Shown: piece after piece, positions 7,095-48,129 of the stretch
Layout: every line of letters starts with the position of its first letter
Numbering within the stretch: position 1 is the first letter of the stretch
Assembly (NCBI GenBank): GCA_022432975.1
Contig: CM039510.1
Coordinates: 31,527,023 to 31,591,022 of the forward strand
Direction of reading: 5' to 3'
Length of the DNA stretch: 64,000 bases
From: Begonia masoniana
Lineage: Eukaryota; Streptophyta; Magnoliopsida; Cucurbitales; Begoniaceae
Program-made: the position numbers and the translations under genes
The notes under the pieces: generated by a model
Told to the model about the DNA's origin: nothing
What the model saw: the letters and a program-made list of their open reading frames with translations, nothing else
The model's database searches: none

Positions 7095-10000
7095 GACTCG
7101 CATGCAAAAAGTGTCATTCTCGGGCCCCGAATGTCATAATTTGCCCAAATTTTTAATAGTCAGTGCCGTAGGCGCCATCTTCCGCTACGCGCGAACCCGC
7201 GCGTGGCAAAAAGGACAAGTGCCACTAAAATCGCAGCCTCAGCTGCCCTTCGCGGATCTCCGGCGAATCTGATATGGAAGAAAGTACTCGGTCGAAAAAT
7301 AGGGGCGCAACACGAGGACTTCCCAAGTGGTCACCCAACTTAGTACTACTCTCGCCGAAGCACTTTTAACTTCGGAGTTCTGATGAGATCCGGTGCATTA
7401 GTGCTCGTATGGTCGCACCAAACATTCTTCGTCTGCCAATTCACTTTGTCTGATGCCCAGCGAGACCGCCGCAACCCGTTCCTCCCACGTAAATACCTCT
7501 CGCGCCATTGAATTACGCTCCACAAAACCCTCCACGCCCCCTGCCCTCCTCCTCGGCGACACGGCTTTACAACCTCTGCACTCCCACGTGTAAAACGCTT
7601 CCCCCGCGATCGCCTTTCACTCCGAATCAACCACGACTCGCATGCAAAAGCTGCCATTCTCGGGCCACGAACGTCACAATTTACCCAAATTTTCAATAGT
7701 CAGCGTCGTAGGCGCCCACTCCCGTTACGCATGAACCTGCGCGTGGCAAAAAGGACAAGGGCCGCTTAAACCACCGCCTCAGCTGCCCTGCGTGGATCTC
7801 CGGCGAATCTGATATGGAAGAAAGTACTCCGTCGAAAAAAAGAGGTGCAACACGAGGACTTCCCAAGTGGTCACCCAACTTAGTATTACTCTCGCCGAAG
7901 CACTTTTAACTTCGGAGTTCAGATGAGATCTGGTGCATTAGAGCTCATATCGTCGCACCCAATATTCTTCGTCAGCCAATTCACTTTGTCCGATGCCCAG
8001 CGAGACCGCCGCAACCCGTTCCTCCCACGTAAATACCTCCCGAGCCATTGAATTCCGCTCCACAAAACCCTCCACGCCTCCAGCCCTCCTCCTCAGCGTC
8101 ACGGCTCTACAGCCTCTGCACTCCCACGCGTCACACGCTTCCCCTGCGATCGCCTTCCACCCCCAATCGACCACGACTCGCATGCAAAAAGTGCCATTCT
8201 CAGGCCCCGAACGTCGCAATTTCCCCAAATTTTCAATAGTTAGTGGCGTAGGCACTTACTCCCGCTACGAGTGAACCCGCGCGTGGCAAAAAGGACAAGG
8301 GCCGCTTATACCCCAGCTTCAGCTGCCCTGCGCGGATCTCTGGCGAATCTGATATGGAAGAAAGTACTCGGTCGAACAAATTGGGTGCAACATGAGGACT
8401 TCCCAAGTGGTCACCCAACTTAGTACTACTCTGGCCGAAGCACTTTTAACTTTGAAGTTCTGATGGGATCCGGTACAATAGTGCTCGTATGGTAGCACCC
8501 AACATTCTTCGTCCGCCAATTCACTTTGTCCGATGCCCAGCGAGACCGCCGCAACCCGTTCCTCTCACGTAAATACCTCCCGTGCCATTGAATTCCGCTC
8601 CACAAAACCCTCTACGCCTCCCGCCCTCCTCCTCGACGTCACGGCTCTACAACCTTCGCACTCCGACGCGTCAAACGCTTCCCCCGCGATCGCCTTCCAC
8701 TCCCAATTGACCACGACTCGCATGAAAAAAGTGCAATTCTTGGGCCTCGAAAGTTGCAATTTGCCCAAATTTTCAATAGTCAGCGCCGTAGGCGCCCACT
8801 CCCACTACGCGCGAACTCGCGGGTGGCAAAAAGGACAAGGGCCGTCTAAACCCCAGCCTCAGCTGCCCTGCGTGGATCTCCGGCGAATCTGATATGCAAG
8901 AAAGTACTCGGTCGAAAAAAAGTAATGCAGCACGAGGTCTTCCCAAGTGGTCACCTAACTTAGTACTGCTCTCGCCGAAGCACTTTTAAATTCAGAGTTC
9001 TGATGGGATCCGGTGCATTAGTGCTCGTATGGTCGCACCCAACATTCTTCGTCTGCCAATTAACTTTGTCCAAAGCCCAGAGAGACCGCCGTAACCCTTT
9101 CCTCCCACGTAAATACCTCCCGTGCCATTGAATTCCGCTCCACAAAACCCGCCACGCCCCCCGCCCTCCTCCTCAGCGTCACGGCTCTACAACCTCCGCA
9201 CTCCCACGCGTCAAACGCTTCCCCCGCGATCGCCTTCCACTCCCAATCGACCACGACTTGCATGCAAAAAGTGCCATTCTCAGGCCCCGAACGTCGCAAT
9301 TTGCCCAAATTTTCAATAGTTAGCACCGTAGGCGGCAACTCCCACTACGCGCAAACCTGCGCGTGGCAAAAAGGACAAGGGCCGCTTAAACCCCAGCTTC
9401 AGCTGCCCTGCGTGGATCTCCGGCGAATCTGATATGGAAGAAAGTACTCCGTCGAAAAAAAGAGGTGCAACACGAGGACTTCCCAAGTGGTCACCCAACT
9501 TAGTATTACTCTCGCCGAAGCACTTTTAAATTCAGAGTTCTGATGGGATCCGGTGCATTAGTGCTCGTATGGTAGCACCCAACATTCTTCGTCCGCCAAT
9601 TCACTTTGTCCGATGCCCAGCGAGACCGCCGCAACCCGTTCCTCCCACGTAAATACCTCCCGTGCCATTGAATTCCGCTCCACAAAACCCGCCACGCCCC
9701 CCGCCCTCCTCCTCAGCGTCACGGCTCTACAACCTCCGCACTCCCACGCGTCAAACGCTTCCCCCGCGATCGCCTTCCACCCCCAATCGACCACGACTTG
9801 CATGCAAAAAGTGCCATTCTCAGGCCCCGAACGTCGCAATTTGCCCAAATTTTCAATAGTCAGCGCCGTAGGCGCCCACTCCCACTACGCGCAAACCTGC
9901 GCGTGGCAAAAAGGACAAGGGCCGCTTAAACCCCAGCTTCAGCTGCCCTGCGTGGATCTCCGGCGAATCTGATATGGAAGAAAGTACTCGGTCGAAAAAA

Positions 10001-11914
10001 AAGGGGTGCAACACGAGTACTTCCCAAGTGGTCACCCAACTTAGTACTACTCTGGCCGAAGCACTTTTAAATTCAGAGTTCTGATGGGATCCGGTGCATT
10101 AGTGCTCGTATGGTAGCACCCAACATTCTTCGTCCGCCAATTCACTTTGTCCGATGCCCAGCGAGACCGCCGCAACCCGTTCCTCCCACGTAATACCTCC
10201 CGTGCCATTGAATTCCGCTCCACAAAACCCTCCACGCCTCCAGCCCTCCTCCTCAGCGTCACGGCTCTACAGCCTCTGCACTCCCACGCGTCACACGCTT
10301 CCCCTGCGATCGCCTTCCACCCCCAATCGACCACGACTCGCATGCAAAAAGTGCCATTCTCAGGCCCCGAACGTCGCAATTTCCCCAAATTTTCAATAGT
10401 TAGTGGCGTAGGCACTTACTCCCGCTACGAGTGAACCCGCGCGTGGCAAAAAGGACAAGGGCCGCTTATACCCCAGCTTCAGCTGCCCTGCGCGGATCTC
10501 TGGCGAATCTGATATGGAAGAAAGTACTCGGTCGAACAAAATGGGTGCAACATGAGGACTTCCCAAGTGGTCACCCAACTTAGTACTACTCTGGCCGAAG
10601 CACTTTTAACTTTGAAGTTCTGATGGGATCCGGTACAATAGTGCTCGTATGGTAGCACCCAACATTCTTCGTCCGCCAATTCACTTTGTCCGATGCCCAG
10701 CGAGACCGCCGCAACCCGTTCCTCTCACGTAAATACCTCCCGTGCCATTGAATTCCGCTCCACAAAACCCTCTACGCCTCCCGCCCTCCTCCTCGACGTC
10801 ACGGCTCTACAACCTTCGCACTCCGACGCGTCAAACGCTTCCCCCGCGATCGCCTTCCACTCCCAATTGACCACGACTCGCATGAAAAAAGTGCAATTCT
10901 TGGGCCTCGAAAGTTGCAATTTGCCCAAATTTTCAATAGTCAGCGCCGTAGGCGCCCACTCCCACTACGCGCGAACTCGCGGGTGGCAAAAAGGACAAGG
11001 GCCGTCTAAACCCCAGCCTCAGCTGCCCTGCGTGGATCTCCGGCGAATCTGATATGCAAGAAAGTACTCGGTCGAAAAAAAGTAATGCAGCACGAGGTCT
11101 TCCCAAGTGGTCACCTAACTTAGTACTGCTCTCGCCGAAGCACTTTTAAATTCAGAGTTCTGATGGGATCCGGTGCATTAGTGCTCGTATGGTCGCACCC
11201 AACATTCTTCGTCTGCCAATTAACTTTGTCCAAAGCCCAGAGAGACCGCCGTAACCCGTTCCTCCCACGTAAATACCTCCCGTGCCATTGAATTCCGCTC
11301 CACAAAACCCGCCACGCCCCCCGCCCTCCTCCTCAGCGTCACGGCTCTACAACCTCCGCACTCCCACGCGTCAAACGCTTCCCCCGCGATCGCCTTCCAC
11401 TCCCAATCGACCACGACTTGCATGCAAAAAGTGCCATTCTCGGGCCCCGAACGTCGCAATTTGCCCAAATTTTCAATAGTTAGCACCGTAGGCGGCAACT
11501 CCCACTACGCGCAAACCTGCGCGTGGCAAAAAGGACAAGGGCCGCTAAACCCCAGCTTCAGCTGCCCTGCGCGGATATCCGGTGAATCTGATATGGAAGA
11601 AAGTACTCGGTCGAAAAAAAGGGGTGCAACACGAGTACTTCCCAAGTGGTCACCCAACTTATTACTACTCTCGCCTAAGCACTTTTAACTTCGGAGTTCT
11701 GATGGGATCCGGTGCATTAGTGCTCATATGGTCGCACCCAACATTCTTCGTTTACCAATTCACTTGTCCGATGCCCAGCGAGACCACCGCAACCCGTTCC
11801 TCCCACGTAAATACCTCCCGTGCCATTGAATTCTGCTCTATAAAACCCTCCATGCCCCCACCCTTTTCCTCGACGTCACGGCTCTACAACCTCCACACTC
11901 CAACGCGTCAAACG
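7095..11914 (-). repeat. 5S-rDNA-type tandem array, block 1
   Basis: Nine ~540-bp units, each a 119-bp 5S-like gene on the minus strand plus a ~421-bp spacer. The left edge is cut by element C inside a spacer. The right edge is cut by element B, whose target duplication AAACG lies at 11910-11914. Units here are more divergent than in block 2. A four-unit higher-order period of 2160 bp is visible: about 8233-9461 recurs almost exactly at 10393-11621. Before the insertion of B this block was continuous with 23452-48129. Confidence 0.95.
7302..11739 (-). rRNA. Nine 5S rRNA-like genes (block 1)
   Basis: The 119-bp copies lie at 7302-7420, 7842-7960, 8382-8500, 8922-9040, 9462-9580, 10003-10121, 10542-10660, 11082-11200 and 11621-11739, all on the minus strand. 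The copies at 8382, 8922, 10542 and 11082 have altered 3' ends and weakened T-runs. Several copies also have altered intermediate-element sequence (GGCCAGAG-type changes) or a changed base near nucleotide 7. They look older and less constrained than the block 2 copies, but they carry the same G15/C64 and AAGT/ACTT stem states. Confidence 0.85.
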
Positions 11915-11926
11915 TGACATGCCTCG

Positions 11927-13203
11927 TGATAGGCTACGGGCTGCAAATGGGGTGAATAAACGCATGCGGATGACAACAAAATAGAAACAAAGATCGGTGC
12001 TTAAGAACACCCCAAAACAGATGCTAAAATGCTGGAAAAATACAGAGAAAACAGTGCAGGGGAGACGAGGGATGAAAGATGGTTACCGAGAGGTGGGCAC
12101 GTCGACCAACTCCTCAGATAGCTGCGGAGGATTGAGAGAAATGTTGTAGAGGTGGCGGAACGATGAGGGAACCATCGTCAGCCGAATGGTGGCTCTTGGC
12201 ATCATTCAGAACAGAGCTCCGCCGAAGTACGGGGAAGCGCTCCAGCGGCTGGAACAGCCCTGCAAGGCGTTTCTTCATCCTCAGAAGAGGCTGATGGGAG
12301 GTGGGTTGATGACCCTTAGCTGGCCCAGAAGCTATCGAAGCTTTGGGTGAGAAATTCGCCGTTGCCAGAGACGAATTCACAACGACGGGCACTTCGGTTT
12401 TGTCGTCTTCCTTCAGTCGAGCTCGTGTGGGAGCTGGCAGAAGACGACTCAGACGCATCTGAGCAACCGTGAACTCGGAGAGTGCTGGCCAAGCCTTCAA
12501 GCGCTGGGCACCGGCGAGGCCGAGAGAAGTTTTCTCTCTTCGCAGAGGAACTCCGACAAACACGAAGACAATCTTTTGGTTTCCAAAAATTTGCATTACT
12601 AGCTAACATTTTACAGAAGAGAAAGAAAGCTTAAATACAGAGGGGAACAGGAAGAAGAAGGAGGAGAGAGCTCGACAGGAAATAGCATCGGCAACGGCTA
12701 GAAAAAGAGTCGTTGGAGCTTCTGGCGGTTCGCTGGCACCCGGTTCACTGGTGGCAGGGCACTCCAGCCGGTTCACATCTCTTGCTCTTGGTTCAGCTCT
12801 CTTTTAGCCTTGGTTCATCCGGTTCAAGCTTTGTTCCTCTTGGTTTGGTCGGTTCAGCATTGGTTCCTCTTGGTTCGGCCACTTCAGCCCTTGGTTCTCT
12901 CTTTAATCTTCCATTTTCCTAAGGCATTAACGATTATATAACCTAGACAAATATTATGCTACGAGTTTGCCCAAAAATGAGTGTTTTAAATTACAAATAA
13001 AATAAAACGAAAACTTGGCTACAAAAGTTGAATTTAAGGAAAACAAATTCCTTTTTCATTCCAAGCTTCGGAAGCCAATTTGCCTACATAATTCCATAAA
13101 TCCATTAGATAGATAAATTAGATAAATACTTACCTTGACTTGTGTTTTAACGGTTCAGACCATAGGCACATTATGGCGGATCTTTGGAACTCGGGGCATA
13201 TCA
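11927..13203 (-). repeat. 3' LTR of element A (1277 bp)
   Basis: Direct repeat of 16008-17245. On the minus strand it contains the GGAATTTG motif near its start, a run of degenerate GGTTC/TTGGTTC repeats (about 12750-12910), a TATA-like TGTATTTAAGC near 12640, and a leader-type ORF (12114-12596, starting MQIFGNQK) downstream of that box. The ORF is 160 residues here but only 96 in the other LTR. It may simply be a chance frame. Confidence 0.9.
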
Positions 13204-16007
13204 TCCCTCCCGATTGTTGAGGATTTGACCTCAAATCCAATGGTTGACTCACCGGGGGACATTACAACACTTAGAATAAAATTTCTCTACCAAAAAGCTT
13301 AAACCAGCAAACCATAGTAGACACAAAATAAAGTTATCCTAAAGTTGAAAATCATTTAACCATTTACAAATGTCAAAACCAAATTGTTCATTTTATCAAT
13401 TTGGAAACAATCATACAAGATAAAAACAAGTTTTAAACAAAGTTGAACAATCCATTTTATATGCTATACCAATCAAAGTAGTTATTGAATCCAAATGAAA
13501 ATTATCCTTTAGAAAAGAAGGAAAACACTTGATTCAATCAATTTAAATTCATCTAAAAAGTAAGAATTTAAAGTCAAGGTTAGCATAAGTTCATTCTAAA
13601 TTCAAACTCATTGAAAACAATTTTCACTAAAAATTTGAGTTAGAATCCATCAATTAAAATAGGCAACATATGGCAACAAAAACTATTTCCTCCAAGTTCT
13701 ATCCATCAAGATAAGCATAGACAATAATTTAAACTTGACATTTTAAATGTTTTAAGAACTATAAAGGAGTTGGTTACAACATTTCAAATCATCCATTAAT
13801 CTCCTATATTCGATCTATCCACAAGATATTCAAGAGATCATTGGAACATACCTTGTTGCCAAAAATTTATTCCATCTCCTTGGCTCATCCATAGCCAATG
13901 CTCAAATGGACTGGAAGCTACCAAACCTCAAATGATCTTTTCCTTTTCAAATCATGAAAACAAGAAGACAACAATATGCATATATTTTGATTTTACCTTT
14001 ACCTTGGCCAACAACAATTAAACTAATTGACCAAGCACTAAATTCTAAAGTGAAACTCTAAATTTAATTCCTAAACAAAGACAAATAAAGTGGTTTGGTT
14101 GGGTATCAACCACTAATTAGATCAAAGATTAGTCATGCATACCTCATGCTACTAACCAAAAATTTAATCCACAATTAGCACAAAAAATAAGTCACAAGAT
14201 TCAATCTAAAAGTCCTAAACATTTAATCAAACAGCACAACAAATCAAACAAGTTAATCAAGGAAAATAAACTTGCAACTAATATCAATGATAAGCTATTG
14301 GGTCTAGGCAACCCTCTAGAACTTTTGTGGAAATCGTCACACTATCCCACACCCTTTAAAGGCGACTTCCTCACACGGAGATCTGTCGGGCCCAATGGCC
14401 AGCGGTAAACTTCAGACAATACCAACGGGTCACAGAGGAAAAGCTCTTGGCCACAAACACAGATCACTCGACGGTACAAGTGAATCCTAAGTGACTAACA
14501 AGATAGTATATGACATGCTTTTGTTAAAAGGTCGGACCTCAAGTTAACATAGTCCTAAACAAAACAGAAAACACTCAACTTGATGCAATCAAACAAGAGT
14601 TCAAAACAGAATTTCAAAACATGGTGAAATAGAATTTGCCAAGCTCTATTTAACATGCAATTTAGTTCATGCTTTTCATTCTAAATTTAACTTTAACATC
14701 AAGGACTCAAACACCTGACACTAAACATCAATTAAACACAAGTTGGATGCATCATAATAGGAATCAAAAACATATCCAAGAAACATAGCAAAACAGAATT
14801 TTAAATCCAATTTTACAAGTAATTTGGCTCAATTTAATCAACCTAGAAATTCTAAATTAAGCATCAACTAAAACGGAATTAAAAACAAGTTTAAAACACA
14901 AATAAGCATGGCAAAACATTTACATAATATTTTAGATACTTTAAAGACACAAACAGAAATTGAAACTCAAAACAATGCACAAAACACATAAAAGCAACAA
15001 AATTTCCTAAATAGAAAAACTAACACAAATCTACTCCAATATTCCTGAAAATTTAACATGGACTAGCAAACAAGATGATTAATATTCTGTCAAATTTTCA
15101 AATCTAGATTCAACATGAGAAGAAAGTTATGCAAGCTCAAAGTTCAGGAAATTTAAACTCAAAAACCAGAAAAATTTCTAAATAACCTAACGTATCCTCA
15201 ACATAAACTAGCACAATCCACATCCGAATAATCTGAAATTTTAACAGAGGTTAGCCCACAATATGATTAGCATTCTGTAAAAATTTCAAATCAAAGTTCA
15301 CTATGAGAAGAAAATTATGCAGGTCCAAAGTAGCAACAAAAACCAGAAAAACTAAAAAAGTAGATTCTAAACAACTTAGATTCCTAAACCGAAACTAACA
15401 CAATTCAACTCCAAATAACCTGAAATTTTCACAGATGATAGTTAACAATATGTTGATTATGCTGTAAAAATTTCAAATCAAAATTCATAGTAAGCAAAGA
15501 ATTATGCAAGTCCAAAGTAGCAACAAAAACTAGAAAAACCAGAAAATTCTAAACCAGAATTTTAATCTAAACATACTAGAAAAGTCTAAACAAAACAATG
15601 CCAATTTAGACACCAAATTAGCACAATAAACTCTCCTAAACATGAGAATTCAATTCTAACATTTCATTTTCTAATCCATTCTCTATGTAAGGTAAATTTT
15701 GCCAACACAAACCTAAACAACTAAACATGGTTCTAAAACAGAAATAACACAACATTAGAACATGCTTTTCAGGAATAACATTCTGAAAATTAAACCAATA
15801 CTGGCCATGGTTAGTTCATGCTTGCTAATCAGAAACATGAGGTTCATATGGAAAAATCATATCAGATAATATCACAGCAATGGAATCTAATTAAACAGCA
15901 AATTCAAACACTTACACGACACAAACAAAAATCACAGCAAAAAACAGGGGACTGAAAAAAATAGAACCCGAATTGCAAACAAAGAGCACTTATGCTCTGA
16001 TACCACT
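13204..16007 (-). other. Internal region of element A, no coding capacity
   Basis: 2.8 kb, very AT-rich. A polypurine-like tract (minus strand TCGGGAGGGA) abuts the 3' LTR at 13204-13213, and the tRNA-Met primer site lies at the other end. The stretch around 14290-14470 is GC-richer. Three degenerate repeats spaced ~185 bp (about 15075, 15260 and 15450) share CTGTAAAAATTTCAAATC-like cores and ATTATGCAAGTCCAAAG. I see no ORF above background. Confidence 0.8.
15994..16005 (-). other. Primer binding site of element A
   Basis: The minus strand reads TGGTATCAGAGC, two bases from the LTR boundary at 16008. This is the same tRNA-Met arrangement as in elements B and C. Confidence 0.85.
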
Positions 16008-17245
16008 TGATAGGCTACGGGCTGCAAATGGGGTGAATAAACGCATGTGGAAGACAACAAAATAGAAACAACGATCGGTGCTCAAGAACACCCCAAAATA
16101 GATGCTAAAATGCTAGAAAAATACAGAGAATACAGGGCAGGGGAGACGAGGGATGAAAGATGGTTACAGAGAGGTGGGCACGTCGACCAACTCCTCAGAG
16201 AGCTGCGGGGGATTGAGAGAAGTGATCGACCAACTCCTCGGCACCATTCAGAACAGAGCTTCGCTGAAGGACGGGGAAGTGCTCCAACGGCTGGAACAGC
16301 CCTGCAAGGCGTTGTTTCTTCCTCAGAAGAGGGCGATGGGAGGTGGGTCAACGACCCTTAGCTGGCCCAGAAGCTATCGAAGCTTTGGGTGAGAAATTCG
16401 CCGTTGCCAGAGACGAATTCACAACGACGGGCACTTCGATTTCGCCGTCTTCCTTCAATCGAGCTCGTGTGGGAGCTGACAGAAGACGACTCAGATGCCT
16501 CCGAGCAACCGTGAACTCGGAGAGTTCTGGCCAAGCCTTCAAGCGTTGGGTGCCGGCGAGGCCGAGAGAAGTTTTCTCTCTTCGCAGAGGAACTCCGACA
16601 AACACGAAGATAATCTTTTGGTTTCCAAAAATTTGCATTACTAGTTAACATTTTACAGAAGAGAAAGAAAGCTTAAATACAGAGGGGAACAGGAAGAAGA
16701 AGGGGGAGAGAGCTCGACGGGAAATAGCATCGGCAACGGCTAGAAAAAGAGTCGTTGGAGCTTCTGGCGGTTCACTGGCACCCGGTTCACTGGTGGCAGG
16801 GCACTCCAATCGGTTAACATCTCTTGCTCTTGGTTCAGCTCCCTTTTGGCCTTGGTTCATCTGGGTCAAGCTTTGTTCCTCTTGGTTTGGCCGGTTCAGC
16901 GTTGGTTCCTCTTGGTTCGGCCACTTCAGTCCTTGGTTCTCTGTTTAATCTTCCATTTTCCTAAGGCATTAATGATTATATAACCAAGACAAATATTATG
17001 CTACGAGTTTGCCCAAAAATGAGGGTTTTAAATTACAAATAAAATAAAACGAAAACTTGGCTACAAAAGTTGAATTTAAGGAAAACAAATTTCTTCTTCA
17101 TTCCAAGCTTCAGAAGCCAATTTGCCTACATAATTCCACAAATCCATTAGATAGATAAATTAGATAAATACTTACCTTGACTTGTGTTTTAACGGTTCGG
17201 ACCGTAGGCACATTATGGCGGATCTTTGGAACTCGGGGCATATCA
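16008..17245 (-). repeat. 5' LTR of element A (1238 bp)
   Basis: Direct repeat of 11927-13203 with the same termini. It carries the GGAATTTG-type motif near 17085, the GGTTC-rich stretch near 16770-16940 and the TATA-like TATTTAAGC near 16672. On the plus strand the end GGGCATATCA at 17245 is followed by the CCTTG copy of the target duplication. Confidence 0.9.
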
Positions 17246-17250
17246 CCTTG

Positions 17251-18649
17251 GGTTACAATCAAATAGAAAATTGGCAAAATCCCAAACTTTATATCATCTC
17301 TCTACTGATTACGTGTTTTTTTTTTGTAGGTATAATTTTTGGAAGGGATGCATACGTAGCACTTGGAGGAGTCACATTTGGCCCATGGGATTTTGTCTTC
17401 CCAGCCCGTTAATTTGTAATTTTTAATTTTAAACTCATTGGCATACATTAGCCTTTTTGTATAGATTATTATTATATTTGCATATCATGCATTAGATTGT
17501 GTGGTTAGGGTTAGATGTATGTTGGTGGATTATGGGTTGAAGAAATTAAACCAATTATTCAAAGGAAGAAGACATCAACATAAGGGAGCTAAAAGGAAGT
17601 CTTGGCCCAAAGAAGAGCCCACAAAAAATGTATAATTTTGGAGGTACATGAGTGAGTGGCAACATGGATTGATGAGTTGGCAAAATCTCACCCATTGGCT
17701 AAGTAATGGCTCAATTTAAAGGAGGAAAACTGGTCTGGCACGCGCGGGTAGGCAGCTGGAGGGCGCGGGCAGCAGGCACTTTGGATCGCTGAGTTGGCGT
17801 GCAAGGAGGCAGCTTGGCCGTCAATCAGCGCGGGCGATCAGCATCGCTCCTTCACCCGGGTAGCACGCACGTGGCCGCGCCTGATTCGTGGATGGCGCGC
17901 GCACCAGATCCTTCATCTTAGCCATCCGATTCTTCTCCTCATCGATGGCCCTCCTTCACTCTTGTCAAACCCTAATCTACCGTAGGAACTCTACAAAGGC
18001 ATGGCATTGGTGAATGTTTGAGAACTTTTGCTCATTTATAAAATTTCTATTTCTCTCTAAAGCTTTGTTTGCTTTTGGTTTTCCTTGGTTCTTTGAATCA
18101 AGTGGATAAGCTCTCCATTGTTAGCCTAGCCTTCGGGTTGCTAGGTTAACTCTTAACCATTCCCTCGCCTTTTCCAACGGGATTAAGAGTTTAGAACGAA
18201 AACCTAGGCCCTAGGTGGTCATTTTTCCTACGGGAAATTCGTTTATCCGAGAGCGTAAAACGTAAGATAGCTATTTGGATCCGCCGAAGGTATTTACATT
18301 TTTAGCATTTCCATCACTTTCCACACACTTTCCACCGTTTAATTTCAGCATACACTACACACATTCCACCTTTATTTTGTGCAATTTTCTTCTTTCATTT
18401 TTGCATCAATTCCCTCCACGTTTTCATCCATCTTCTCTTCATCTCTTTCTTTTATTTTCTTCATATTTCATACCCTTATCATGCCTATACTCCTCGGCCA
18501 TCATTAGCATACAACAACACCTTCACTTATTCATCTTTTCTAGCTATTTTCTTTATGTATTTTCGGTTCTTGCAACACCAATCACCCGAGCACACTTCTA
18601 ATTAATTTTGTGCATTACACAACCCCCTTTTCTAAGGGGTTTCATGTCA
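17251..18649 (+). repeat. 5' LTR of element B, main part
   Basis: Continuation of the LTR that begins at 11915. It matches 22117-23451 along its length, except for ~90 bp near 18548-18640 that are missing from the 3' LTR. It includes the TTTGTCTTCCC motif near 17393, a G/C-rich block (17735-17910) and a TATA position mutated to CTACAAAGG near 17987. It ends ATGTCA at 18649. Confidence 0.9.
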
Positions 18650-18651
18650 AG

Positions 18652-18664
18652 TGGTATCAGAGCC
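18652..18664 (+). other. Primer binding site of element B
   Basis: TGGTATCAGAGCC, two bases after the LTR end, complementary to plant initiator tRNA-Met. Confidence 0.9.
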
Positions 18665-20004
18665 AAAAGGCTTCCCACGATGCATTTTAGTTCCCATGAC
18701 AATAGTCAAAAATCGGCACAAAACTGGGATAGCGGCTCGTTTCATTTCTAGCAATATTTTCACTTCTATTGCTGATCTAACTTTGTGCTAACTTGTGCTA
18801 ATCTTAACGTTATATTTGCTGCCATTATTCTTATCATTTGCTAGCTTGAAATATTAAGTTAAATATGGTATGCTTTGATGGAGAAAAATTCGGCCAAGGT
18901 AAGGAAGAAATTCCTCTCGGATTTTTGGTTATTCCCTCTCGGTTTTCTTACCTATTTTAGCTTCGGTTTGCCTATTCCTTGCTTTAATTTTTGCAGCATA
19001 TTTATGCCTTATTGTGAACCATGTTTTGCATCTAAATATTGTCAAATGACTAGAGGTAAAATCTGAATATTTTGGATGCATAAAATCGGCCTAAAGTTAA
19101 AGCTATAAAATCGGTTTTATGTCTACTTTAGTTTCGGTTTTTGCATGTTTCTTTGCCTCGGTTTTTCTATCACATTTTGCATGATTTGAACCATGAATTT
19201 TACCTCTAAGATTTGCCTATAATTTAGTATAAAATCTGGTGATAATGATATTTGCAAATCGGCCTTAATGACATATTCTAAATTGGTTTAATGGTGTTTT
19301 CCTTTCTTTGTTTGTGGGATTTGTTAACTTCCATTTTTGGCTTGATTTGGATTCGGTTTTCTAGTCTTTAAATGTTAGGTTTTAATCCCATAATTGCATC
19401 TAAATTTTCCTTAAAATCTGAATATATGGATACATAAAAATTGCCACTAAATATAAAGCTATAAAAATTGGTTTAATTGTTATTCTCGGTTTCTATTATG
19501 TTATGCTCGATTTTTATGGCCTATTGCTGATTGTTTGCACTTGGATTTAGCCTTTAATTCATCTATTCTATGCTGTTATTTGAATGCACAAGATTGGTTT
19601 ACGAGAATTTAGCAATAGCATGTTAAAATTCGTCATTATTGCACTTAATGCTTCATGAAAATTCTACTATATAACTTGAAAATTTCAGCATGATTACCTT
19701 GATAAAACTTGTGCTTTAATTCTAATACTTGTTGATTTTGGAGTTATTTAGTTGTTATTTATATTATTTTGGGTGATTCTAGTTTAAAGTTGATTAATTT
19801 TTGAAGTTTGATTGAAAATTGTGGTAATTGCACGTATTAAAAATTTCATTTCTAAAATTAGTTTGTTAAGTGTTTAATGTTATCATTAAGTTGTTTCCTT
19901 AAGTGAGCATGATCCATATTTTATTATTGTCTTAGTTAAGAATTTGCCCTTAGTGCTTAAAATTTTCCTAAGACATTAATCATATAATCACCTCACCAAT
20001 TAGG
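18665..20004 (+). other. AT-rich leader of element B
   Basis: About 1.3 kb between primer site and gag. It contains repeated TCGGTTTT-type motifs and no supported ORF, and it parallels the leader of element C. Confidence 0.7.
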
Positions 20005-20927: not shown

Positions 20928-20987
20928 GTACAAGAAACTTCAAGGATACTTGCCAATTAACCAACCATTTCTAGACCACCGTCTTCT

Positions 20988-24566: not shown

Positions 24567-24601
24567 GGATCCGGTGCATTAGTGCTCGTATGATTGCACC
24601 C
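24567..24601 (-). pseudogene. Partial 5S rRNA-like copy (5' 35 nt)
   Basis: Only the first ~35 nucleotides of the 5S-like gene remain, running from GGATCC to the 5' end, directly after the truncated LTR. They duplicate 23783-23816 on the other side of it. Confidence 0.85.
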
Positions 24602-36600: not shown

Positions 36601-37324
36601 AAAACCCTCCACGCCCCCCCGCCCTCCTCCTCCGCGTCACGGCTCTACAACCTCCGCACTTCCACGCAGTCAAACGCTTCCACCGCGATCGCCTTCCACT
36701 CTCAATCGACCACGACTCGCATGCAAAAAGTGCCATTCTCGGGCCCCGAACGTCCCAATTTGCCCAAATTTTCAATAGTCAGCGCCGTTGGCGCCCACTA
36801 CCCGCTACGCGCGAACCCGCGCGTGGCAAAAAGGACAAGGACCGCTTAAATCCCAGCCTCAGCTGCCCTGCACGGATCTTCGGCGAATCTGTTATCGAAG
36901 AAAGTACTCGGTCAAAAAAAAAGGGGTGCAACACGAGGACTTCCCAAGTGGTCACCCAACTTAGTACTACTCTCGCCGAAGCACTTTTAACTTCGGAGTT
37001 CTGATGGGATCCGGTGCATTAGTGCTCGTATGGTCGCACCCAACATTCTTCGTCCGCCAATTCACTTTGTCCGATGCCCAGCGAGACAGCCGCAACCCTG
37101 TTCCTCCCAAGTAAATACCTTCCGTGCCATTGAATTCCGCTCCACAAAACCCTCCACGCCCCCCGCCCTCCTCCTCCGCGTCACGGCTCTACAACCTCCG
37201 CACTTCCACGCAACAAACGCTTCCCCCGCGATCGCCTTCCACTCTCAATCGACCACGACTCGCATGCAAAAAGTGCCATTCTCGGGCCCCGAACGTCCCA
37301 ATTTGCCCAAATTTTCAATAGTCA

Positions 37325-37366
37325 GCGCCGTTGGCGCCCACTACCGCTACGCGCGAACCCGCGCGT
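37325..37366. other. Paired GC-rich hairpins in the 5S spacer (example unit)
   Basis: Two adjacent perfect inverted repeats: GCGCC-GTT-GGCGC (37325-37337) and ACGCGCG-AACC-CGCGCGT (37349-37366). They recur at the same place in most units, about 100-140 bp beyond the T-run terminator. In some outlying units one arm is mutated (for example around 8240-8285). Confidence 0.8.
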
Positions 37367-37464
37367 GGCAAAAAGGACAAGGACCGCTTAAATCCCAGCC
37401 TCAGCTGCCCTGCACGGATCTTCGGCGAATCTGTTATCGAAGAAAGTACTCGGTCAAAAAAAAA

Positions 37465-37583
37465 GGGGTGCAACACGAGGACTTCCCAAGTGGTCACCCA
37501 ACTTAGTACTACTCTCGCCGAAGCACTTTTAACTTCGGAGTTCTGATGGGATCCGGTGCATTAGTGCTCGTATGGTCGCACCC
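37465..37583 (-). rRNA. Representative 5S rRNA-like gene
   Basis: A core copy. On the minus strand it starts GGGTGCGACC at 37583 and ends GTTGCACCCC at 37465, followed at once by nine T, a Pol III terminator. Compared with the angiosperm 5S consensus from memory, it differs at nucleotides 9 (T>C), 15 (C>G), 56-57 (GC>AA), 64 (G>C), 81 (G>A), 83 (A>T), 93 (T>A) and 95 (C>T). Helix I termini pair, helix II keeps 15/64 as G-C, and helix IV becomes AAGT/ACTT. Boxes A (50-64) and C (80-97) are altered; the intermediate element GGCGAGAG is kept. I see no TATA-like element near -28 and no C at -1, both usual in plant 5S genes. Confidence 0.85.
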
Positions 37584-40500
37584 AACATTCTTCGTCCGCC
37601 AATTCACTTTGTCCGATGCCCAGCGAGACAGCCGCAACCTGTTCCTCCCAAGTAAATACCTTCCGTGCCATTGAATTCCGCTCCACAAAACCCTCCACGC
37701 CCCCCGCCCTCCTCCTCCGCGTCACGGCTCTACAACCTCCGCACTTCCACGCAACAAACGCTTCCCCCGCGATCGCCTTCCACTCTCAATCGACCACGAC
37801 TCGCATGCAAAAAGTGCCATTCTCGGGCCCCGAACGTCCCAATTTGCCCAAATTTTCAATAGTCAGCGCCGTTGGCGCCCACTACCGCTACGCGCGAACC
37901 CGCGCGTGGCAAAAAGGACAAGGACCGCTTAAATCCCAGCCTCAGCTGCCCTGCACGGATCTTCGGCGAATCTGTTATCGAAGAAAGTACTCGGTCAAAA
38001 AAAAAGGGGTGCAACACGAGGACTTCCCAAGTGGTCACCCAACTTAGTACTACTCTCGCCGAAGCACTTTTAACTTCGGAGTTCTGATGGGATCCGGTGC
38101 ATTAGTGCTCGTATGGTCGCACCCAACATTCTTCGTCCGCCAATTCACTTTGTCCGATGCCCAGCGAGACAGCCGCAACCTGTTCCTCCCAAGTAAATAC
38201 CTTCCGTGCCATTGAATTCCGCTCCACAAAACCCTCCACGCCCCCCGCCCTCCTCCTCCGCGTCACGGCTCTACAACCTCCGCACTTCCACGCAACAAAC
38301 GCTTCCCCCGCGATCGCCTTCCACTCTCAATCGACCACGACTCGCATGCAAAAAGTGCCATTCTCGGGCCCCGAACGTCCCAATTTGCCCAAATTTTCAA
38401 TAGTCAGCGCCGTTGGCGCCACTCCCGCTACGCGCGAACCCGCGCGTGGCAAAAAGGACAAGGACCGCTTAAATCCCAGCCTCAGCTGCCCTGCACGGAT
38501 CTTCGGCGAATCTGTTATCGAAGAAAGTACTCGGTCAAAAAAAAAGGGGTGCAACACGAGGACTTCCCAAGTGGTCACCCAACTTAGTACTACTCTCGCC
38601 GAAGCACTTTTAACTTCGGAGTTCTGATGGGATCCGGTGCATTAGTGCTCGTATGGTCGCACCCAACATTCTTCGTCCGCCAATTCACTTTGTCCGATGC
38701 CACGCGAGACAGCCGCAACCGTTCCTCCCAAGTAAATACCTTCCGTGCCATTGAATTCCGCTCCACAAAACCCTCCACGCCCCCCGCCCTCCTCCTCCGC
38801 GTCACGGCTCTACAACCTCCGCACTTCCACGCAACAAACGCTTCCCCCGCGATCGCCTTCCACTCTCAATCGACCACGACTCGCATGCAAAAAGTGCCAT
38901 TCTCGGGCCCCGAACGTCCCAATTTGCCCAAATTTTCAATAGTCAGCGCCGTTGGCGCCCACTACCCGCTACGCGCGAACCCGCGCGTGGCAAAAAGGAC
39001 AAGGACCCGCTTAAATCCCAGCCTCAGCTGCCCTGCACGGATCTTCGGCGAATCTGTTATCGAAGAAAGTACTCGGTCAAAAAAAAAGGGGTGCAACACG
39101 AGGACTTCCCAAGTGGTCACCCAACTTAGTACTACTCTCGCCGAAGCACTTTTAACTTCGGAGTTCTGATGGGATCCGGTGCATTAGTGCTCGTATGGTC
39201 GCACCCAACATTCTTCGTCCGCCAATTCACTTTGTCCGATGCCCAGCGAGACCGCCGCAACCGTTCCTCCCAAGTAAATACCTTCCGTGCCATTGAATTC
39301 CGCTCCACAAAACCCTCCACGCCCCCCGCCCTCCTCCTCCGCGTCACGGCTCTACAACCTCCGCACTTCCACGCAACAAACGCTTCCCCGCGATCGCCTT
39401 CCACTCTCAATCGACCACGACTCGCATGCAAAAGTGCCATTCTCGGGCCCCGAACGTCCCAATTTGCCCAAATTTTCAATAGTCAGCGCCGTTGGCGCCC
39501 ACTCCCGCTACGCGCGAACCCGCTCGTGGCAAAAAGGACAAGGACCGCTTAAATCCCAGCCTCAGCTGCCCTGCACGGATCTTCGGCGAATCTGTTATCG
39601 AAGAAAGTACTCTCGGTCAAAAAAAAAGGGGTGCAACACGAGGACTTCCCAAGTGGTCACCCAACTTAGTACTACTCTCGCCGAAGCACTTTTAACTTCG
39701 GAGTTCTGATGGGATCCGGTGCATTAGTGCTCGTATGGTCGCACCCAACATTCTTCGTCCGCCAATTCACTTTGTCCGATGCCCAGCGAGACAGCCGCAA
39801 CCTGTTCCTCCCAAGTAAATACCTTCCGTGCCATTGAATTCCGCTCCACAAAACCCTCCACGCCCCCGCCCTCCTCCTCCGCGTCACGGCTCTACAACCT
39901 CCGCACTTCCACGCAACAAACGCTTCCCCCGCGATCGCCTTCCACTCTCAATCGACCACGACTCGCATGCAAAAAGTGCCATTCTCGGGCCCCGAACGTC
40001 CCAATTTGCCCAAATTTTCAATAGTCAGCGCCGTTGGCGCCCACTCCCGCTACGCGCGAACCCGCTCGTGGCAAAAAAGGACAAGGACCGCTTAAACCCC
40101 AGCCTCAGCTGCCCTGCGCGGATCTTCGGCGAATCTGTTATGGAAGAAAGTACTCGGTCAAAAAAAAAGGGGTGCAACACGAGGACTTCCCAAGTGGTCA
40201 CCCAACTTAGTACTACTCTCGCCGAAGCACTTTTAACTTCGGAGTTCTGATGGGATCCGGTGCATTAGTGCTCGTATGGTCGCACCCAACATTCTTCGTC
40301 CGCCAATTCACTTTGTCCGATGCCCAGCGAGACAGCCGCAACCTGTTCCTCCCAAGTAAATACCTTCCGTGCCATTGAATTCCGCTCCACAAAACCCTCC
40401 ACGCCCCCCGCCCTCCTCCTCCGCGTCACGGCTCTACAACCTCCGCACTTCCACGCAACAAACGCTTCCCCCGCGATCGCCTTCCACTCTCAATCGACCA

Positions 40501-43500
40501 CGACTCGCATGCAAAAAGTGCCATTCTCGGGCCCCGAACGTCCCAATTTGCCCAAATTTTCAATAGTCAACGCCGTTGGCGCCCACTCCCGCTACGCGCT
40601 AACCCGCGCGTGGCAAAAAGGACAAGGACCGCTTAAATCCCAGCCTCAGCTGCCCTGCACGGATCTTCGGCGAATCTGTTATGGAAGAAAGTACTCGGTC
40701 AAAAAAAAAGGGGTGCAACACGAGGACTTCCCAAGTGGTCACCCAACTTAGTACTACTCTCGCCGAAGCACTTTTAACTTCGGAGTTCTGATGGGATCCG
40801 GTGCATTAGTGCTAGTATGGTCGCACCCAACATTCTTCGTCCGCCAATTCACTTTGTCCGATGCCCAGCGAGACCGCCGCAACCCGTTCCTCCCACGTAA
40901 ATACCTTCCGTGCCATTGAATTCCGCTCCACAAAACCCTCCACGCCCCCCGCCCTCCTCCTCCGCGTCACGGCTCTACAACCTCCGCACTTCCACGCAAC
41001 AAACGCTTCCCCGCGATCGCCTTCCACTCTCAATCGACCACGACTCGCATGCAAAAAGTGCCATTCTCGGGCCCCGAACGTCCCAATTTGCCCAAATTTT
41101 CAATAGTCAGCGCCGTTGGCGCCCACTCCCGCTACGCGCGAACCCGCGCGTGGCAAAAAAGGACAAGGACCGCTTAAACCCCAGCCTCAGCTGCCCTGCG
41201 CGGATCTTCGGCGAATCTGTTATCGAAGAAAGTACTCGGTCAAAAAAAAGGGGTGCAACACGAGGACTTCCCAAGTGGTCACCCAACTTAGTACTACTCT
41301 CGCCGAAGCACTTTTAACTTCGGAGTTCTGATGGGATCCGGTGCATTAGTGCTCGTATGGTCGCACCCAACATTCTTCGTCCGCCAATTCACTTTGTCTG
41401 ATGCCCAGCGACACCGCCGCAACCCGTTCCTCCCACGTAAATACCTTCCGTGCCATTGAATTCCGCTCCACAAAACCCTCCACGCCCCGCGCCCTCCTCC
41501 TCCGCGACACGGCTCTACAACCTCCGCACTTCCACGTGTCAAACGCTTCCCCAGTGATCGCCTTCCACTCTCAATAGACCACGACTCGCATGCAAAAAGT
41601 GCCATTCTCGGGCCCCGAACGTCCCAATTTGCCCAAATTTTCAATAGTCAGCGCCGTTGGCGCCTACTCCCGCTACGCGCGAACCCGCGCGTGGCAAAAA
41701 GGACAAGGACCGCTTAAACCCCAGCCTCAGCTGCCCTGCGCGGATCTTCGGCGAATCTGTTATGGAAGAAAGTACTCGGTCAAAAAAAAAGGGGTGCAAC
41801 ACGAGGACTTCCCAAGTGGTCACCCAACTTAGTACTACTCTCGCCGAAGCACTTTTAACTTCGGAGTTCTGATGGGATCCGGTGCATTAGTGCTCGTATG
41901 GTCGCACCCAACATTCTTCGTCCGCCAATTCACTTTGTCCGATGCCCAGCGAGACCGCCGCAACCCGTTCCTCCCACGTAAATACCTTCCGTGCCATTGA
42001 ATTCCGCTCCACAAAACCCTCCACGCCCCCCGCCCTCCTCCTCCGCGTCACGGCTCTACAACCTCCGCACTTCCACGCGTCAAACGCTTCCACTGCGATC
42101 GCCTTCCACTCTCAATCGACCACGACTCGCATGCAAAAAGTGCCATTCTCGGGCCCCGAACGTCCCAATTTGCCCAAATTTTCAATAGTCAGCGCCGTTG
42201 GCGCCTACTCCGCTACGCGCGAACCCGCTCGTGGCAAAAAAGACAAGGACCGCTTAAACCCCAGCCTCAGCTGCCCTGCGCGGATCTTCGGCGAATCTGT
42301 TATCGAAGAAAGTACTCGGTCAAAAAAAAAGGGGTGCAACACGAGGACTTCCCAAGTGGTCACCCAACTTAGTACTACTCTCGCCGAAGCACTTTTAACT
42401 TCGGAGTTCTGATGGGATCCGGTGCATTAGTGCTCGTATGGTCGCACCCAACATTCTTCGTCCGCCAATTCACTTTGTCCGATGCCCAGCGAGACCGCCG
42501 CAACCCGTTTCTCCCACGTAAATACCTTCCGTGCCATTGAATTCCGCTCCACAAAACCCTCCACGCCTCCCGCCCTCCTCCTCCGCGTCATGGCTCTACA
42601 ACCTCCGCTCTTCCATGCGTCAAACGCTTCCCTCGCGATCGCCTTCCACTCTCAATCGACCACGACTCGCATGCAAAAAGTGCCATTCTCGGGCCCCGAA
42701 CGTCCCAATTTGCCCAAATTTTCAATAGTCAGCGCCGTTGGCGCCCACTCCCGCTACGCGCGAACCCGCGCGTGGCAAAAAAGGACAGGACCGCTTAAAC
42801 CCCAGCCTCAGCTGCCCTGCGCGGATCTTCGGCGAATCTGTTATGGAAGAAAGTACTCGGTCAAAAAAAAGGGGTGCAACACGAGGACTTCCAAGTGGTC
42901 ACCCACTTAGTACTACTCTCGCGAAGCACTTTTAACTTCGGAGGTCTGATGGGATCCGGTGCATTAGTGCTCGTATGGTCGCACCCAACATTCTTCGTCC
43001 GCCAATTCACTTTGTCCGATGCCCAGCGAGACAGCCGCAACCCGTTCCTCCCACGTAAATACCTTACGTGCCATTGAATTCCGCTCCACAAAACCCTCCA
43101 CGCCCCCCGCCCTCCTCCTTCGCGTCACGGCTCTACAACCTCCGCACTTCCACGTGTCAAACGCTTCCCCCGCGATCGCCTTCCACTCTGAATCGACCAC
43201 GACTCGCATGAAAAAAGTGCCATTCTCGGGCCCCGAACGTCCCAATTTGCCCAAATTTTCAATAGTCAGCACCGTTGGCGCCCACTCCCGCTACGCGCGA
43301 ACCCGCGCGTGGCAAAAAGGACATGGGCTGCTTAAACCCCTGCCTCAGCTGCCCTGCGTGGATCTCTGGCGAATCTAATATGGAAGAAAGTACTCGGTCA
43401 AAAAAAGGGGTGCAACACGAGGACTTCCCAAGTGGTCACCCAACTTAGTACTACTCTCGCCGAAGCACTTTTAACTTCAGAGTTCTGATGGGATCCGGTG

Positions 43501-46500
43501 AATTAGTGCTCGTATGGTCGCACCCAACATTCTTCGTCCGCCAATTCACTTTGTCCGATGCCCAGTGAGAGCGCCGCAACCCGTTCCTCCCACGTAAATA
43601 CTTTCCGTGCCATTGAATTCCGCTCCACAAAACCCTCCACGCCACCCGCCCCCCTCCTCCGCGTCACGGCTCTACAACCTCCGCACTTCCACGCGTCAAA
43701 CGCTTCTCCCGCGATCGCCTTCCACTATCAATCGACCACGACTCGCATGCAAAAAGTGCCATTGTCGGGCCCCGAACGTCCCAATTCATTATCAATCGTC
43801 AGCGCCGTTGGCGCCCACTCCCGCTACGCGCGAACCGGCGCGTGGCAAAAAGGACAAGGACTGGTTAAACCCCAGCTTCAGCTGCTCTGCGCGGATCTTC
43901 GGCGAATCTGTTATGGAAGAAAGTACTCGGTCAAAACAAAGGGGTACAACACGAGGACTTCCCAAGTGGTCACCCAACTTAGTACTACTCTCGCCGAAGC
44001 ACTTTTAACTTCGGAGTTCTGATGGGATCCGGTGCATTAGTGCTCGTATGGTCGCACCCAACATTCTTCGTTCGCCAATTCACTTTGTCCGATGCCCAGC
44101 GAGACCGCCGCAACCCGTTCCTCCCACGTAAATACCTTACGTGCCATTGAATTCCGCTCCACAAAACCCTCCACGCCCCCCGCCCTCCTCCTTCGCGTCA
44201 CGGCTCTACAACCTCCGCACTTCCACGTGTCAAACGCTTCCCCCGCGATCGCCTTCCACTCTGAATCGACCACGACTCGCATGCAAAAAGTGCCATTCTC
44301 GGGCCCCGAACGTCCCAATTTGCCCAAATTTTCAATAGTCAGCACCGTTGGCGCCCACTCCCGCTACGCGCGAACCCGCGCGTGGCAAAAAGGACATGGG
44401 CTGCTTAAACCCCTGCCTCAGCTGCCCTGCGTGGATCTTCGGCGAATCTAATATGGAAGAAAGTACTCGGTCAAAAAAAGGGGTGCAACACGAGGACTTC
44501 CCAAGTGGTCACCCAACTTAGTACTACTCTCGCCGAAGCACTTTTAACTTCGGAGTTCTGATGGGATCCGGTGAATTAGTGCTCGTATGGTCGCACCCAA
44601 CATTCTTCGTCCGCCAATTCACTTTGTCCGATGCCCAGCGAGACCGCCGCAACCCGTTCCTCCCACGTAAATACCTTCCGTGCCATTGAATTCCGCTCCA
44701 CAAAACCCTCCACGCCCCCCGCCCTCCTCCTCCGCGTCACGGCTCTACAACCTCCGCACTTCCACGCGTCAAACGCTTCCCCCGCGATCGCCTTCCACTC
44801 TCAATCGACCACGACTCGCATGCAAAAAGTGCCATTCTCGGGCCCCGAACGTCCCAATTCGCCAAATTATCAATCGTCAGCGCCGTTGGCGCCCACTCCC
44901 GCTACGCGCGAACCCGCGCGTGGCAAAAAGGACAAGGACCGCTTAAACCCCAGCCTCAGCTGCCCTGCGCGGATCTTCGGCGAATCTGTTATGGAAGAAA
45001 GTACTCGGTCAAAAAAAAAGGGGTGCAACACGAGGACTTCCCAAGTGGTCACCCAACTTAGTACTACTCTCGCCGAAGCACTTTTAACTTCGGAGTTCTG
45101 ATGGGATCCGGTGCATTAGTGCTCGTATGGTCGCACCCAACATTCTTCGTCCGCCAATTCACTTTGTCCGAGGCCCAGCGAGACCGCCGTAACCCGTTCC
45201 TCCCACGTAAATACCTTCCGTGCCGTTGAATTCCGCTCCACAAAACCCTCCACGCCCCCCGCACTCCTCCTCCGCGTCACGGCCCTACAACCTCCGCCCT
45301 TCCACGCGTCAATCGCTTCCCCCGCGATCGCCTTCCACTCTCAATCGACCACGACTCGCATGCAAAAAGTGCCATTCTCGGGCCCCGAACGTCCCAATTT
45401 GCCCAAATTTTCAATAGTCAGCGCCGTTGGCGCCCACTCCCGCTACGCGCGAACCCGCGCGTGGCAAAAAGGACGAGGACCGCTTAAACCCCAGCCTCAG
45501 CTGCCCTGCGCGGATCTTCGACGAATCTGTTATGGAAGAAAGTACTCGGTCAAAAAAAAAGGGGTGCAACACGAGGACTTCCCAAGTGGTCACCCAACTT
45601 AGTACTACTCTCGCCGAAGCACTTTTAACTTCGGAGTTCTGATGGGATCCGGTGCATTAGTGCTCGTATGGTCGCACCCAACATTCTTCGTCCGCCAATT
45701 CACTTTGTCCGATGCCCAGCGAGACCGCCGCAACCCGTTCCTCCCACGTAAATACCTTCCGTGCCATTGAATTCTGCTCCACAAAACCCTCCATGCCCCC
45801 GCCCTTCTCCTCCGCGTCACGGCTCTTAAACCTCCGCACGTCCACGCGTCAAACGCTTCCCCCGCAATCGCCTCCCACTCTCAATCGACCACGACTCGCA
45901 TGCAAAAAGTGCCATTCACGGGCCCCGAACGTCCCAATTTGCCCAAATTTTCAATAGTCAGCGCCGTTGGCGCCCACTCCCGCTACGCGCGAACCCGCAC
46001 GTGGCAAAAAGGACAAGGACCGCTTAAACCCCAGCCTCAGCTGCCCTGCGCGGATCTTCGGCGAATCTGTTATGGAAGAAAGTACTCGGTCAAAAAAAAG
46101 GGGTGCCACACGAGGACTTCCCAAGTGGTCACCCAACTTAGTACTACTCTCGCCGAAGCACTTTTAACTTTGGAGTTCTGATGGGATCCGGTGCATTAGT
46201 GCTCGTATGGTCGCACCCAACATTCTTCGTCCGCCAATTCACTTTCTCCGATGCCCAGCGAGACCGCCGCAACCCGTTCCTCCCACGTAAATACCTTCCG
46301 TGCCATTGAATTCTGCTCCACAAAACCCTCCACGCCCACCGCCCTTCTCCTCCGCGTCACGGCTCTACAACCTCCGCACTTCCACGCGTCAAACGCTTCC
46401 CCCGCGATCGCCTCCCACTCTCAATTGACCACGACTCGCATGCAAAAAGTGCAATTCACGGGCCCCGAACGTCCCAATTTGCCCAAATTTTCAATAGTCA

Positions 46501-48129
46501 GCGCCGTTGGCGCCCACTCCCGCTACGCGCGAACCCGCACGTGGCAAAAAGGACAAGGACCGCTTAAACCCCAGCCTCAGCTGCCCTGCGCGGATCTTCG
46601 GCGAATCTGTTATGGAAGAAAGTACTCGGTCAAAAAAAAGGGGTGCAACATGAGGACGTCCCAAGTGGTCACCCAACTTAGTACTACTCTCGCCGAAGCA
46701 CTTTTAACTTCGGAGTTCTGATGGGATCCGGTGCATTAGTGCTCATATGGTCGCACCCAACATTGTTCGTCCGCCAATTCACTTTTTCCGATGCCCAGCG
46801 AGACCGCCGCAACCCGTTCCTCCCACGTAAATACCTTCCGTGCCATTGAATTCCGCTCCACAAAACCCTCCACGCCCCCCGCCCTCCTCCTCCGCGTCTC
46901 GGCTCTACAACCTCCGCACTTCCACGCGTCAAACGCTTCCCCCGCGATCGCCTTCCACTCTCAATCGACCACGACTCGCATGCAAAAAGTGCCATTCTCG
47001 GGCCCCGAACGTCCCAATTTGCCCAAATTTTCAATAGTCAGCGCCGTTGGCGCCCACTCCCGCTACGCGCGAACTCGCGCGTGTCAAAAAGGACGAGGAC
47101 CGCTTAAACCCCAGCCTCAGCTGGCCTGCGCGGATCTTCGGCGAATCTGTTATGGAAGAAAGTACTCGGCAAAAAAAAGGGTGCAACAAGACGACTTCCC
47201 AAGTGGTCCTCCAACTTAGTACTACTCTCGTCGAAGCACTTTTAACTTCGGAGTTCTGATGGGATCCAGTGCATTAGTGCTCGTATGGTCGCACCCAACA
47301 TTCTTCGTCCGCCAATTCACTTTGTCCGATGCCCAGCAAGACCACCGCAACCCGTTCCTCCCACGTAAATACCTTCCGTGCCATTGAATTCCGCTCCACA
47401 AAACCCTCCACGCCCCCCGCCCTCCTCCTCCGCGTCACGGCTCTACAACCTCCGCACTTCCACGCGTCAAACGCTTCCCCCGCGATCGCCTTCCACTCTC
47501 AATCGACCACGACTCGCATGCAAAAAGTGCCATTCTCGGGCCCCGAACGTCCCAATTTGCCCAAATTTTCAATAGTCAGCGCCGTTGGCGGCCACTCCCG
47601 CTACGCGCGAACCCGTGCGTGGCAAAAAGGACAAGGACCGCTTAAACCCCCGCCTCAGCTGCCCTGCGCGGATCTTCGGCGAATCTGTTATGGAAGAAAG
47701 TACTCGGTCAAAAAAAAGGGGTGCAACACGAGGACTTCCCAAGTGGTCACCCAACTTAGTACTACTCTTGCCGAAACACTTTTAACTTCGGAGTTCTGAT
47801 GGGATCCGGTGCATTAGTGCTCGTATGGTCTCACCCAACATTCTTCGTCCGCCAATTCACTTTGTCCGATGCCCAGCGAGACCGCCGCAACTCGTTCCTC
47901 CCACGTAAATACCTTCCGTGCCATTGAATTCCGTTCCACAAAACCCTCCACGCCCCCCGCCCTCCTCCTCTGTGTCACGGCTCTACAACCTCTGCACTTC
48001 CACGCGTCAAACGATTCCCCCGCGATCGCCTTCCACTCTCAATCGACCACGACTCGCATGCAAAAAGTTCCATTCTCGGGCCCCGAACGTCCCAATTTGC
48101 CCAAATTTTCAATAGTCAGCGCCGTTGGC

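Follow-up and report, generated by a model that had tools for sequence, protein, structure and literature searches.

The 5S ribosomal RNA (rRNA) genes that form a tandem array in a 64,000-nt stretch of Begonia masoniana DNA (contig CM039510.1; hereafter the window, which lies on C9 of the assembly) encode a derived 5S sequence. We are highly confident that this array is one of several 5S loci that share the derived rRNA, and that the latter has replaced the canonical sequence. The variant was the only 5S type found, and therefore, as judged from sequence, it is almost certainly the working 5S rRNA. Few sequences of flowering plants are as conserved as 5S rRNA, and the promoter of its gene is internal. 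Therefore, each change must suit both the ribosome and the transcription factor TFIIIA.

The consensus of the array was compared with a canonical angiosperm 5S sequence and was identical to it at 108 of 119 positions. The eleven differences were A3G, T9C, C15G, G56A, C57A, G64C, G81A, A83T, T93A, C95T, and T116C. A preliminary description of this DNA had listed nine divergent positions (9, 15, 56, 57, 64, 81, 83, 93, and 95), all of which were right, and 3 and 116 were added. Other angiosperms have G3-C116, and the exchange at this pair thus depends on the reference. Pairing was evaluated using a list of 35 pairs for plant 5S rRNA. In four pairs both partners were exchanged, namely 3-116 (AU to GC), 15-64 (CG to GC), 81-95 (GC to AU), and 83-93 (AU to UA), the last three being the compensated exchanges that had been described before. 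The claim that T9C turns a G-U pair of helix I into G-C was also borne out (9-110, UG to CG). Furthermore, C57A converted a U·C mismatch of the canonical molecule at 21-57 into a U-A pair, and G56A was the sole unpaired change. The variant formed all 35 pairs and the canonical sequence 34, and the minimum energies were -44.1 and -42.0 kcal/mol, respectively.

When 11 substitutions were placed at random in 200,000 trials, four two-sided exchanges never occurred, and 99 trials kept all 35 pairs; this null model ignores phylogeny. These results support the proposal that the RNA fold was under selection after the sequence had left the plant consensus. In the consensus line of RF00001, however, 15-64 is shown as paired but both 81-95 and 83-93 as unpaired. 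Therefore, the pairing in helix IV rests on the minimum-energy folds, in which the variant and the canonical 5S share the same helix IV. A full-length consensus copy matched RF00001 with 111.9 bits over model positions 1-120 (gathering score 38).

Of the 55 Rfam 5S matches in the window, 53 belonged to the array and two to a Cassandra element. The 53 array copies were all on the minus strand, in tandem between 7302 and 47836 with a unit of about 540 bp; 52 had a length of 119 nt and one of 116 nt. Each of the eleven sites had the variant state in 50-52 of the 52 full-length copies, and all eleven states were present in 48, in agreement with the earlier report of more than 50 copies with a fixed variant. 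The consensus was matched exactly by 22 full-length copies, whereas 30 differed from it.

The assembly comprises 795.45 Mb in 308 contigs. C1 to C15 are of chromosome size (14 of them 45-85 Mb, C10 at least 39.9 Mb), C16 has 0.15 Mb, and seven further contigs that were examined have 12-60 kb. A search of the assembly with RF00001, in which 47 of 42,527 candidates were scored, revealed loci on C2, C3, C4, C7, C9, and C14. In 18 regions of 10 kb fetched from C2, C3, C4, C7, and C14, all 290 5S-like matches resembled the variant more closely than the canonical 5S. Among them, 244 agreed with the variant at no fewer than 100 of 119 positions, and at any given site 224-243 of these 244 had the variant state. 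The unit lengths varied among the loci (334, about 540-550, and 250 bp), and at one locus on C4 (L011) all 30 copies equaled the consensus at 119 of 119 positions. A canonical array elsewhere had been named as the observation that would speak for a satellite. The whole assembly contained 742 exact matches to a variant 52-mer, but not one to a canonical 25-mer spanning the A-box and the intermediate element (IE). A canonical 29-mer from the C-box and helix IV was found with up to two mismatches at four places, which were two Cassandra-like domains, one degenerate array copy, and a 5S-like exon of the TFIIIA gene. Together, the exact 25-mer and the 29-mer with up to two mismatches revealed no canonical 5S gene in the assembly. 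A search of IMG/VR with variant and canonical 5S strings gave 0 matches each. A degenerate 5S copy on C14 (L073, 15497201-15497800) carried G81, T83, A93, and C95; it is possibly a relic of an intermediate helix IV, or two of its bases changed by chance, and it was therefore left out of the analysis.

Several observations weigh against replacement of the canonical sequence by a selected variant. With one mismatch, the canonical 25-mer had 145 matches; among the 100 listed, 99 carried C64 and one had another form, and 45 were outside the listing. The searches would miss a canonical gene that has a mismatch to the 25-mer as well as at least three to the 29-mer, and a canonical array may be absent through incomplete assembly of 5S genes or stretches of N. 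The four rightmost copies of the array diverged more in the gene (15/476) than in the spacer (32/1673). Lastly, single two-sided paired exchanges in decaying copies, all pooled, numbered 6 versus 11.4 expected.

We consider it very unlikely that the ribosome uses another 5S rRNA and that the array in the window represents a 5S-derived satellite or a family of pseudogenes. This explanation would account for the 30 full-length copies that deviate from the consensus, for private mutations that break pairs at a random rate, for the 20 outer units, in which G>A was more frequent (193) than any other change (C>T and G>T next, with 86 each), and for the repeat-flanked elements that interrupt the array. 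However, the assembly lacks exact canonical A-box/IE cores, and all examined loci, one of them with a completely homogeneous stretch, had the same consensus. The explanation was rejected on the first of these grounds and is largely refuted.

The private mutations were analyzed separately. The 28 distinct full-length sequences of the window contained 96 private substitutions, which included no two-sided exchange (0.55 expected) and broke 45 pairs (43.5 expected). When the window was combined with the other loci (of the 290 matches, the 242 that shared at least 105 positions with the variant), 186 distinct sequences contained 1008 substitutions and 485 broken pairs, versus 457.8 expected. Ongoing compensation among the window copies was thus rejected. 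The private mutations show no compensation, and selection therefore concerned the fixed sequence and not each copy; the original claim of selection holds for the former and fails copy by copy. In the core of the array (33 copies), the differences from the consensus amounted to 14/3924 (0.36%) in the gene and 313/13831 (2.26%) in the spacer. The change of the spacer also exceeded that of the gene in the middle segment (7 copies) and in the left segment (9 copies; gene 59/1071, spacer 362/3745). We regard the array of the window as a secondary locus in partial decay, and the homogeneous 334-bp array on C4 is probably the better candidate for the main expressed locus.

The promoter and the flanking regions of the variant genes were also characterized. 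The IE was unchanged, the A-box was altered at 56, 57, and 64, and the C-box at 81 and 83. The C-box AAGTTGGGTG deviates from the proposed plant consensus RGSWTGGGTG at position 81. In all seven locus groups compared, a block upstream of +1 was present with small differences among the groups, and the consensus had a run of T6-T9 after the gene.

These observations are consistent with the following scenario. The substitutions in the stems would have been fixed as matched exchanges, since the rRNA is required to fold and to bind both L5 and the ribosome. Homogenization would have spread the new sequence among the loci, which were found to share the same 5S consensus. The RNA polymerase III (Pol III) promoter is internal to the gene, so that the A-box and the C-box changed along with it, and the Pol III machinery must presumably have tolerated the promoter changes. 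Cassandra elements, which use the same promoter, may have taken on part of the changes that they are seen to share.

The Cassandra element of the window consists of two long terminal repeats (LTRs; 53897-54273 and 54345-54721) of 377 bp each, a non-coding internal part of 71 bp with the primer-binding site (PBS) TGGTATCAGAGC, which we take to be of the methionine-tRNA type, and a target duplication of 5 bp (TCCAC). The LTRs have 0 mismatches, and the insertion is therefore probably recent. Both 5S-derived domains have A57, C64, and T83 like the host 5S, but canonical G56, G81, T93, and C95. A search of the assembly with the LTR gave at least 86 matches (40 of 3,689 candidates scored). Altogether 22 domains were examined, from the window, the locus L009, and 20 of the best-scoring matches, a sample that is biased to close relatives; 21 were readable, and L060 was dropped because it had no anchor. 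A57, C64, and T83 were present in 21/21 and A56 in 14/21, whereas A81 and A93 were present in none and T95 in one. A second subfamily, represented by 8 distinct domains of 4 elements, combined C64 with canonical G56 and C57. All 8 domains had T83; one carried an additional T at this site, and another had A84. For L065, the PBS and the ends of the LTRs were also read. Tandem LTRs with a spacing of 444-461 bp were observed at two places, three at C7:28003565-28004830 and four at C15:24959480-24961212. A literature search for Cassandra together with Begonia and retrotransposon yielded nothing.

Three A-box grades of Cassandra thus coexist, C64, C64 with A57, and C64 with A57 and A56. Their coexistence is consistent with stepwise mirroring of the host, and the order of the steps was probably 64, then 57, then 56. 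Position 64 may vary in Cassandra for its own reasons, because a variable motif between the A-box and the IE is described in part of PMC10853983. Because position 15 is at the border of the 5S-like region of Cassandra, its G15 was left out of the mirrored states. The host changes are mirrored at the promoter sites, whereas the partner bases 93 and 95 show no mirroring; this counts against wholesale copying of the gene. The opposite direction, gene conversion of the 5S genes by Cassandra, might explain why A57, C64, T83, and often A56 are common to domains and genes, but is very unlikely. All 21 domains lack A81 and A93 and 20 lack T95, so that a conversion tract would not yield the paired helix IV, and a watermelon 5S clone already has the helix IV states.

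In contrast to the rRNA, a 5S-like stretch in the TFIIIA gene has retained the canonical pairs. The near-canonical string at C3:3222976-3223004 is flanked by TFIIIA matches that correspond to the query residues 48-92 and 90-152 (zinc-finger exons), one of which ends at 3222519 and the next of which starts at 3223140. The stretch reads GGATCCC...AGAACTCC...CCAGGAAGGGTGACCTCCTGGGAAG, and we interpret it as the plant 5S rRNA mimic exon (P5SM). It has kept G81-C95 and A83-U93, and the mimic therefore did not follow the rRNA. As predicted from their sequences, two RNAs encoded in one genome hold the helix IV fold by different pairs. An Rfam search of the stretch gave 0 matches up to E 0.1, the presence of the family in Rfam being unchecked. 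A second TFIIIA-like locus (L078, C8:46881701-46886400) is decayed and has remnants of the mimic exon. An exonized 5S insertion that affects TFIIIA splicing is mentioned in a part of PMC3409069.

Taken together, we tentatively suggest, at somewhat less than even confidence, that the 5S rRNA of the Begoniaceae and its promoter were rewritten pairwise at the A-box and the C-box, that the Cassandra grades record the order of the A-box changes, and that the TFIIIA mimic has retained the ancestral helix IV. If this is true, the genome holds a datable series of an essential internal promoter shifting without loss of function. Eleven changed sites with kept pairs, graded Cassandra elements, and a canonical mimic allow the co-evolution of rRNA, promoter, TFIIIA, and parasite to be tested within a single genus. 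According to PMC7612470, the published data for this genus comprise four assemblies and shotgun sequences of 74 further species.

As an alternative to a divergent functional 5S rRNA, the preliminary description had considered a 5S-derived RNA with a role of its own, which is extremely improbable, as nothing but the fold kept through sequence change speaks for it, whereas the ribosome needs 5S rRNA, the full-length variant scores 111.9 bits, and no other 5S type was found for the ribosomal job. The counts of 0 canonical and 742 variant strings instead support the divergent functional 5S rRNA.

The features of the window are compiled below. The direct repeats within the interruption of the array lie at about 11.9-12.5/16.0-16.5 kb and 17.2-18.5/22.1-23.4 kb, and the two elements that they flank are LTR-like and probably represent LTR elements.

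Table 1. Positions of the 5S array, its flanking signals, and the Cassandra element in the window.
Feature	Position	Strand	Remarks
Left segment of 5S array	7302..11739	-	9 degenerate copies, unit ~540 bp
Interruption by two repeat-flanked elements	11919..23424	.	direct-repeat comparison
Right segment of 5S array	23700..47836	-	44 copies, homogenized core ~28-46 kb
Run of 8 T directly 3' of gene, Pol III terminator-like	28252..28259	-	sequence
One consensus 5S copy	28260..28378	-	111.9 bits to RF00001
Upstream block, candidate external promoter	28379..28423	-	common to 7 locus groups
Cassandra-type TRIM (terminal-repeat retrotransposon in miniature), complete	53897..54721	-	LTRs, PBS, internal part, target duplication
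5S-derived domain, one LTR	53971..54083	-	49.7 bits to RF00001
5S-derived domain, other LTR, identical	54419..54531	-	49.7 bits to RF00001

In addition, the window contains very long homopolymers at 3205-3707 (503 C), 52255-52758 (504 T), 56633-58574 (1942 A), 58622-59509 (888 T), and 61363-62270 (908 T), which are probably sequencing or assembly artifacts. The one at 52255 falls within a minus-strand copia-type frame, and a piece of a copia-type polymerase lies on the minus strand at 50830-52089 (RVT_2 and retroviral SH3-like; integrase below the cut-off). A tandem array of a 94-bp unit (1548-2082; 5.7 copies, 92% matches) and a 300-bp direct repeat (60708-61007/62974-63273; 95% identity, 2266 bp apart) were also found. 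Elsewhere in the assembly, matK-like fragments gave 77 matches, most of them on chromosome-size contigs (including L037-L044), and the match on the 145-kb C16 had 11 stops. A plastid-like matK fragment on C14, read through stops, was 87-88% identical to Begonia, 87% to Hillebrandia, 80-81% to Datisca and Corynocarpus, and 75-77% to cucurbits among the best 120 of 3,111 matches.

The variant was compared with known systems on the basis of parts of the respective papers. A literature search by sequence yielded, judging by title, a single plant 5S paper, which describes a watermelon clone (PMC6843817), and a search for Begonia with 5S rDNA yielded none on Begonia 5S by the same measure. The helix IV of the watermelon clone, with A81, T83, A93, and T95, is identical to that of Begonia, whereas G56, C57, and G64 are retained. 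T95 was read in spite of the canonical base in the reverse primer; the bases at 9 and 15 are uncertain, because the forward primer covers them. As far as one clone indicates, the change of helix IV may therefore predate the split of Begoniaceae and Cucurbitaceae, and the changes of the A-box and position 64 may have followed it.

In the Anthemideae (Asteraceae), the C-box of the 5S genes has shifted to GGCTTGGGTG, as described by Garcia et al. (2012; PMC3409069). As in Begonia, the internal promoter for Pol III was altered in one lineage, and the alteration was homogenized through the genome; the variant was present in cDNA, and a compensated helix I exchange at +3/+118 was reported (PMC3409069). 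However, the A-box and the IE of the Anthemideae are conserved and two of the three C-box changes were termed non-compensatory (PMC3409069), whereas in Begonia the A-box is also altered and pairing is kept at all stem changes. The divergent, homogenized type 2 5S of Cardamine amara differs from type 1 by 7 substitutions, with changes in the A-box, the IE, and the C-box that its authors term compensatory or nearly so (PMC13087485). Four of the 7 sites are in stems, small structural differences were described, and expression was demonstrated (PMC13087485); in Begonia all considered pairs are kept. Cassandra LTRs mirror promoter mutations of the host 5S, with several grades per genome (Maiwald et al. 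2024, PMC10853983), as was observed here. The mirroring in print concerns the C-box of the Anthemideae (PMC10853983), whereas in Begonia it includes the A-box at 56/57, position 64, and the C-box at 83, but neither 81 nor 93, and 95 in a single domain only.

The kind of change is thus already known, since compensated 5S and Pol III promoter variants (Anthemideae, Cardamine) and mirroring Cassandra elements have been described in these sources, and the comparable cases together with the watermelon helix IV make the Begonia variant less surprising. As far as the searches reached, four features are new, namely the preservation of pairing throughout the altered stems, a C-box that departs from the consensus proposed for plants, Cassandra elements in three A-box grades, and a TFIIIA mimic with the canonical helix IV.

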